Below the pieces are notes generated by a model. That model saw nothing but the letters and a program-made list of their open reading frames with translations. It ran no database searches and was not told the origin of the DNA. Positions 10,096 through 10,986 of a DNA stretch of 43,880 nt are shown here, piece after piece. The DNA is from an uncultured Alphaproteobacteria bacterium (lineage in GTDB: Bacteria; Pseudomonadota; Alphaproteobacteria; Bin95). Each line of letters starts with the position of its first letter. The stretch's first letter is position 1. The DNA lies in NCBI GenBank assembly GCA_937891825.1, contig CALAHN010000107.1, positions 1 through 43,880 on the forward strand, in the 5' to 3' direction. A program made the translations under genes and the position numbers.

Positions 10096-10127
10096 ATTGT
10101 CTTCTTTTGTGCGCCATTGTGCGTCGG

Positions 10128-10742
10128 TCAGCGCCATCCGGCGCGGGCGTGACGGCCGCGCACGGGTTCCGCTCGCATCTTAAGCTTGATCGCCGCCACC
10201 TGATAGACGGAGAGCCGGGTGATGTGCGCGACTTCGGTCAGCGGCATCGACGTTTCCCGAATCAGGGCCCGTGCATGGTCATGGGGGTTCATGCGGCGAT
10301 TGCTTTTGGGGCGTTGGGAGGCGCTGCGCTGCTTTGGCGGCGGCGGCGCTTCGTCCTCATCCAGGCCGCGACGCCGGGCCGCGTCAAAGGCCGCGCTCCA
10401 CCGGCGCTTTTCATCCTCGGGCTTGCGGTAGCGGCCATCGCGGTCCTTGGCCTGGCCCCACCGCTCCTCGAAGCCCGGAGGCGCCTCGAAGCCATGGCCG
10501 TTCCAGCCGCGCGCGGCCGCCCTGCCCCAGAAGTCGGGCCGCGGCGGCGGACGCGGACGCGGCGGCTCGGCCGCCGGCTCGGCAGACGCCGCCGCTTCGC
10601 GCAGGTCCATGCCGTGCCGCGCCGCAAGTCGTTTGGCGGCGGCCAAGGCGGCATCCCGCTCGCCTTCGAACGGGCTTTCCGCGGCCAACTTCAGCAGGTT
10701 GTGAAACCGCCGCCGCTCCCCACTGTCGAAACCCTTCGAAAT
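10128..10742 (-). CDS. DUF2786-domain protein with apparent ATT start codon
   Basis: A protein of unknown function with a DUF2786-like N-terminal domain: RRRFHNLLKLAAESPFEGE followed by RDAALAAAKRLAARHGMDL, about residues 10-45. A Pro/Arg-rich linker follows. The C-terminal helical segment (ARALIRETSMPLTEVAHITRLSVYQVAAIK, about residues 160-190) resembles a helix-turn-helix. The domain needs codons upstream of the TTG at 10688. Between that codon and the in-frame TGA stop there is no ATG or GTG, but there is an ATT at 10742 placed exactly 7 nt after AAGGAG (10750-10755). I therefore choose the ATT, giving 204 residues. A sequencing frameshift or a CTG/TTG start remains possible. It is probably cotranscribed with the carbonic anhydrase gene. 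Confidence 0.7.
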   Translation of the reverse strand: MSKGFDSGERRRFHNLLKLAAESPFEGERDAALAAAKRLAARHGMDLREAAASAEPAAEPPRPRPPPRPDFWGRAAARGWNGHGFEAPPGFEERWGQAKDRDGRYRKPEDEKRRWSAAFDAARRRGLDEDEAPPPPKQRSASQRPKSNRRMNPHDHARALIRETSMPLTEVAHITRLSVYQVAAIKLKMRAEPVRGRHARAGWR

Positions 10743-10749
10743 CTGGCCG

Positions 10750-10755
10750 CTCCTT
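10750..10755 (-). promoter_or_regulatory. Ribosome binding site supporting the ATT start
   Basis: AAGGAG on the minus strand lies 7 nt before the ATT at 10742. No ATG, GTG or TTG start in any frame lies at comparable spacing. Confidence 0.6.
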
Positions 10756-10771
10756 CAGGCAAAGATCCCCT

Positions 10772-10812
10772 GACCATAACTGAATTGCGGCGGGTTTTCG
10801 ACCATAACCCGC
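10772..10812. promoter_or_regulatory. Direct repeat and inverted repeat upstream of the DUF2786 gene
   Basis: The nonamer GACCATAAC occurs twice, at 10772-10780 and 10800-10808, with starts 28 bases apart. Between and over the second copy is a perfect inverted repeat GCGGGTT/AACCCGC (10790-10796 and 10806-10812, 9-nt loop). It lies 30-70 bases upstream of the minus-strand start in a 244-base divergent gap, which suggests an operator, possibly for autoregulation by the helix-turn-helix-like protein downstream. Confidence 0.3.
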
Positions 10813-10986
10813 TCCTATCGACAACCGGTAAATACGGACGGATCGCCACAGCCTGTCCTGACGATGGCGTGGAGGGGACATGCGCCCTATAGTCCCGCGC
10901 ATGTTTCGACCTGTTGGAGCATGGCGCGTTCAGGCGAGCGCGCGGTCCATGGCTCCAGCTTTATGACCGAAAGGGGCGCTGCGGGC

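Follow-up and report, generated by a model that had tools for sequence, protein, structure and literature searches.

Comparative evidence for a conserved ATT/ATC start codon on a DUF2786 gene in several alphaproteobacterial families

Introduction

The gene for IF3, infC, is the known case of a non-canonical start codon with autoregulation, and IF3 itself destabilizes initiation on non-canonical codons. To our knowledge, few bacterial genes besides infC keep a start other than ATG, GTG or TTG. Which genes do? The sigR gene of Streptomyces has a GTC start that is repressed by IF3, and the paper reports GTC in 32 of 34 species and GTT in the other two, all within one genus (PMC5472188). Staphylococcus aureus and its relatives have conserved starts with strong Shine-Dalgarno pairing on ccpN (AUA), which encodes a helix-turn-helix (HTH) repressor, and on cvfC1 (AUU), which encodes a small putative regulator; in S. 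aureus reporters AUU and AUA gave about a tenth of AUG, and ccpN up to 30 per cent in rich medium (PMC13009471). The AUU start of Escherichia coli pcnB is said to limit expression (cited in PMC9410913). Gene prediction relies on ATG, GTG and TTG, as PMC5472188 points out; when it is limited to these codons, genes with non-canonical starts are missed or given a wrong N-terminus.

Here we describe a gene from a 43,880-nucleotide stretch of DNA (the window; contig CALAHN010000107.1) of an uncultured alphaproteobacterium. It encodes a DUF2786 protein and appears to start with ATT. The literature on DUF2786 and on AUU and other non-canonical starts, searched by titles and abstract openings, does not describe a non-canonical start for any DUF2786 gene. 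Control by a weak start codon is already known from infC, pcnB, sigR, ccpN and cvfC1; the DUF2786 gene is a new case.

How does it compare with these systems? Like infC, it uses a conserved Ile-type codon instead of ATG, together with a Shine-Dalgarno sequence, but its product is not IF3, so that any control would act in trans and not as feedback. With sigR it shares a conserved non-canonical start on a putative regulator other than IF3; sigR uses GTC or GTT in one genus with demonstrated IF3 repression, whereas here ATT or ATC, read from sequence, occurs in several families. The ccpN and cvfC1 genes likewise place a conserved AUA or AUU start behind a strong Shine-Dalgarno sequence on a regulator or putative regulator. 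Their proteins are unrelated to ours and belong to another phylum, and the evidence there comes from ribosome profiling and reporters where ours is comparative. The pcnB gene of E. coli is alike in its AUU start and otherwise unrelated.

Locus and predicted protein

The features of the locus, in window coordinates, are as follows.

10128..10742, minus strand: gene for a DUF2786 protein with a C-terminal HTH-like region, 204 residues from ATT to TGA (sequence reading, Pfam)
10740..10742, minus strand: ATT, by comparison the start codon; its counterpart is ATT/ATC in relatives and ATG in family f29
10750..10755, minus strand: Shine-Dalgarno sequence AAGGAG, 7 nt (CGGCCAG) before the ATT (sequence, anti-Shine-Dalgarno pairing)
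10755..10757, minus strand: in-frame TGA stop, separated from the ATT by four codons (sequence)
10605..10697, minus strand: Pfam DUF2786 match, residues 16-46 counted from the ATT
10170..10286, minus strand: predicted three-helix HTH-like C-terminal region, residues 153-191 (model; Pfam HTH_18 below cut-off; Foldseek weak)
10686..10688, minus strand: TTG at residue 19, first in-frame canonical start codon, discounted as the start of this gene (it falls within helix 1 and is not a conserved codon)

The open frame spans 10754-10128 and is bounded at its 5' end by the TGA at 10757-10755, the last base of which is also the first A of AAGGAG (10755-10750). After this stop the codons run AGG AGC GGC CAG ATT TCG AAG GGT TTC GAC AGT GGG and continue GAG CGG CGG CGG TTT CAC AAC CTG CTG AAG TTG. 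The first-pass annotation had placed the ATT 7 nt after AAGGAG, with neither ATG nor GTG between the TGA and the TTG, and the minus-strand sequence confirms this arrangement: in the window, no in-frame ATG, GTG or TTG lies between the TGA at 10757-10755 and the TTG at 10688. The ATT at 10742-10740 is the sole ATG, GTG, TTG, ATT, ATC or ATA codon in this frame upstream of a conserved RF motif. A promoter and terminator scan found no promoter-like site in this region of the window. Antisense to the gene, on the plus strand, runs a 261-codon open frame (10107-10892), which probably arises as a side effect of GC-rich codon usage.

Read from the ATT, the protein scores 28.1 bits against Pfam DUF2786 (PF10979), above the gathering cut-off of 23.9, and all 22 members aligned match the family at E 0.1 or better. 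In this score the window protein resembles other DUF2786 proteins; the members studied here differ from the Pfam family in adding a conserved C-terminal HTH-like region, and by the ATT or ATC start codon described below.

Could the gene use a canonical start instead? It might begin at the TTG at 10688, which is the first canonical codon, or at an upstream start, in or out of frame, combined with a frameshift or sequencing error. A start at the TTG would remove residues 1-18 and cut into helix 1, which AlphaFold predicts at residues 7-22 counted from the ATT. Four residues that are invariant in the alignment of 22 sequences (R12, F13, L16 and L17) would be lost with it. The DUF2786 match, which begins at residue 16, would be cut and its score lowered to 24.0 bits, in line with the first-pass claim that the domain extends upstream of this codon. 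Moreover, among the aligned sequences listed, just one besides the window gene, the f102 member L042, has TTG as the codon at residue 19.

What kind of protein is encoded? The AlphaFold model (mean pLDDT 77) places a three-helix group at residues 153-191 with high local confidence; its pTM of 0.35 means that the mutual arrangement of the protein's two parts is not fixed by the model. The HTH_18 match is weak (15.2 bits against a cut-off of 33.6). A Foldseek search of the PDB gave no match with E below 0.001, and the best 50 of 126 matches, which include Lrp-, TrpR- and MarR-type proteins, are all weak (E 2 or worse). NCBIfam has no family for the window protein. The product is possibly a small DNA-binding regulator with a C-terminal DNA-binding unit.

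Homologues and their start codons

The gene was detected in 12 of 40 genomes related to the window's own (itself included), all of them in family f1, in 12 of the 14 genomes of the window's order and in 19 of the 385 genomes of a class-wide sample. The orders of three other holders carry it in 34 of 61, 19 of 24 and 2 of 2 genomes, and a scan of named genomes added 24 loci. Three f29 genomes and one f178 genome matched but yielded no locus. Flanking frames at 14 loci, compared by eye, differ between families, and a conserved operon context was rejected.

The RF motif was located by profile in 109 loci, which reduce to 69 distinct 5' ends. At codon -11, -12 or -13, counted from the motif, 47 of these have ATT or ATC; this count, like the other counts given here, overstates the evidence because related sequences are not independent. 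We call this homologous start codon ATY when it is ATT or ATC; L090 and L091, with ATC in place but an ATG just inside, were left out of the ATY set. The first-pass annotation had looked to homologues for a start at the same codon, and their alignment favours the ATT. From the last in-frame stop (or from 30 codons upstream) to codon -7, 38 of the 47 ATY genes contain no ATG, GTG or TTG, whereas in nine (L003, L004, L012, L034, L036, L061, L078, L084 and L103) a canonical codon stands in frame no more than 30 codons upstream. No more than one to three codons lie between an in-frame stop and the ATT in L029, L035, L074, L081 and L083; the example from a Minwuiaceae record (L035) reads TAA-CCC-ATT. 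The recurrence of the ATT/ATC pattern in separately assembled genomes makes it very unlikely that the ATT is an artefact of a frameshift or sequencing error.

The pattern differs from family to family. All 12 gene-bearing genomes of f1 (14 searched) have ATY at the homologous codon, with three ATT and nine ATC. Two of them (L003, L004) have an ATG directly before the conserved ATT, which may mean that a canonical start has partly returned or that initiation is dual. All 21 gene-bearing genomes of f155 (23 searched) have ATT, whereas the Ile codons inside these genes comprise 65 ATC, 32 ATT and 8 ATA; three f155 loci are identical to Kiloniellaceae sequences and one to Denitrobaculum tricleocarpae strain R148. 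Eleven of the 19 gene-bearing f102 genomes have ATC or ATT two codons further upstream, and of the remaining eight, seven have ATG elsewhere and one (L109) has CTG. In L109 this CTG, one codon off the usual place, is the nearest start candidate; a TTG lies 18 codons further upstream and there is no ATG nearby. One of two f95 members has ATT, and the other combines GTG at this codon with an ATG three codons earlier. In the f65 member (L034) ATC stands at the usual place, yet there are ATGs 16 and 19 codons upstream, so that its start is ambiguous.

Canonical starts occur at the same position in other relatives. In f29, which belongs to the same order as f155, seven of nine sequences (12 genomes matched) have ATG at exactly the homologous codon and two have it slightly downstream. 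Four distant members, in f105, have ATG at codon -11 or -12. What of the upstream ATG followed by conserved sequence that the first-pass annotation had raised against the ATT? It is present in full only in an f102 subclade (L037-L039, L042 and L053), with the ATG 24 codons ahead of the RF motif; the two f1 genomes with ATG directly before the ATT show it in part. An upstream ATG start was rejected as an account of the family, since it suits no more than some of the f102 genomes, f65 and a few isolated members.

A quick maximum-likelihood tree of 68 proteins, for which the sequences were taken from the RF motif on so that the start codon itself is excluded, requires four changes between ATY-type (47 rows) and canonical starts (21 rows); many of its forks are weakly supported, and no direction of change was read from it. 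Both ATG-ATT genomes are included among its ATY-type rows, as is the CTG case; L005, in which the gene is cut by a contig end, was left out. To judge from the canonical-start relatives (21 of the 68 rows), the weak start is not needed by the protein everywhere.

Start codon or conserved isoleucine

A pairwise, ungapped comparison by codon position drew on 40 sequences, every one of them ATY, in six sets of close relatives. Over the twelve upstream codons the difference rates at positions 1, 2 and 3 are 0.51, 0.52 and 0.49, values raised by insertions because the comparison is ungapped, with 15 in-frame stops and no coding pattern. At the ATY codon the rates are 0, 0 and 0.18, the two zeros following from the selection of ATY-only groups. 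They are 0.21, 0.11 and 0.37 at codons +1 to +5 and 0.10, 0.06 and 0.44 at codons +6 to +45, where the coding pattern is evident and no stops occur.

These rates bear on the canonical starts that might lie upstream. Such a start could use the ATG just before the ATT in two f1 relatives, or the out-of-frame GTG that lies 8 nt upstream in 10 of 11 f102 members. However, the upstream frame has no coding pattern and carries stops, and no out-of-frame start is common to the families. Together with the truncation of helix 1 and the loss of the invariant residues by a start at the TTG, and the recurrence of the pattern in separately assembled genomes, this leaves a canonical start hardly credible.

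Is the ATY codon preceded by signals for initiation? Pairing with the anti-Shine-Dalgarno tail of 16S rRNA averages -6.0 kcal/mol before the 47 ATY starts, against -2.15 kcal/mol for 165 Ile codons inside these genes and -2.52 for 1798 Ile codons of long frames. Pairing of -5 kcal/mol or stronger is found in 12 of 12 f1 and 16 of 21 f155 genes and in one of 11 in f102, where pairing is weak. A -10-like box ends 27-38 nt before the ATY in 21 of 46 genes, compared with 5 of 138 control windows (L099, with too short an upstream region, was left out); in the other 25, the window's own gene among them, no such box was recognised. Where the box is present, it suggests a leader of about 20-30 nt, too short for a distant start.

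Ribosomes might also finish a tiny upstream frame and restart at the ATY. Three f102 members (L031, L049 and L099) have a 6-residue frame, from ATG or GTG to TGA, that ends 4 nt before the ATC next to AGGTGA, and in L081 the ATT is preceded by ATGTGA. In all, 14 of the 47 ATY genes have a frame with ATG, GTG or TTG that begins within 30 nt of the ATY and ends before it, five of them with ATG. Nevertheless, no such frame exists in the other 33, which include the window's own gene and the full set of 12 from f1, and the small frames that do exist differ between groups. Re-initiation is possible within the group of L031, L049 and L099; as the explanation for the ATY codon in general, we consider it very improbable.

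Direct initiation at the ATT remains the preferred reading. Because the position is homologous to ATY or ATG in relatives, a Shine-Dalgarno sequence precedes it and codon-type conservation begins there, the gene almost certainly starts at the ATT at 10742. The comparison indicates that a non-canonical start is conserved across several alphaproteobacterial families.

infC in the same genomes

Does the same lineage use a non-canonical start on infC? The gene was detected in 25 of the 27 genomes sampled, and at these 25 loci (L110-L134) its apparent start, after a Shine-Dalgarno-like stretch, is ATA in 20 and ATC in five. L119 was counted as ATA, which aligns with the others; an ATC lies two codons before it. 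Thirteen of the 25 loci also have ATG or GTG a few codons inside. The ATA/ATC start appears to fit the known infC pattern, short of proof. Six of the 25 loci have an in-frame stop one or two codons before the ATA or ATC. Annotation by canonical codons would shorten IF3 in these genomes.

The infC starts could also be taken to mean that the lineage uses ATT and ATC starts freely and that the DUF2786 gene is not special. Few controls are at hand, but they point the other way. The rpmI gene, which adjoins infC, starts with ATG in all nine cases read from the 25 loci examined. For the f102 enoyl-CoA hydratase, the 10 starts read from 25 loci examined are ATG in two, GTG in five and TTG in three; three pairs among them are the same locus twice, so that seven are distinct. 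We regard free use of such codons as very improbable.

Discussion

How would an ATT start affect expression? In the mechanism that we propose, the Shine-Dalgarno sequence would recruit the ribosome, AUU or AUC would be set in the P site with the initiator tRNA, and methionine would be inserted. IF3 proofreading would reject most AUU and AUC complexes, so that the protein would be synthesized at a low rate, and this rate is expected to go up as free IF3 becomes scarcer relative to ribosomes. In this way the start codon would throttle a small putative DNA-binding regulator, as it apparently throttles IF3's own gene through an ATA or ATC start. We consider it very probable, by analogy with sigR, ccpN and cvfC1, that the ATT acts as a weak start policed by IF3. 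Since infC appears to start with ATA or ATC in the same genomes and IF3 represses a regulator other than infC in Streptomyces, it is reasonable to infer that expression of the DUF2786 gene depends on initiation-factor levels, which the first-pass annotation had raised as a possibility.

Would the cell make use of this dependence? The ATT or ATC could be the start and yet serve as a fixed brake that holds expression low and constant, with changing IF3 levels of no physiological use; a brake of this sort has been proposed for E. coli pcnB. All the sequence evidence fits this equally well, and the AUU start of S. aureus cvfC1 showed no medium-dependent effect (PMC13009471). On the other side, infC has an apparent ATA/ATC start in these genomes, which makes it likely that expression co-varies with IF3 but not that the cell uses this. 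The fixed brake is a narrower form of the explanation by a start policed by IF3, and our confidence in the one overlaps with that in the other; we hold it to be quite possible, just short of probable. That the cell uses changes in IF3 as a signal seems to us rather doubtful. Tentatively, the DUF2786-HTH protein may be an arm of an alphaproteobacterial IF3-sensing circuit, in which the AUU or AUC start would lift a transcription regulator when free IF3 falls relative to ribosomes and so pass translation-initiation capacity on to transcription, an idea that we think somewhat unlikely.

The preferred reading, a weak start policed by IF3, offers a case that spans several families, in which relatives that use ATG form a natural control and which includes at least one named strain, Denitrobaculum tricleocarpae R148. 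The size of the gene set under IF3 control becomes directly testable beyond E. coli, Streptomyces and Staphylococcus, and the ATY start provides a handle on the function of DUF2786 proteins.
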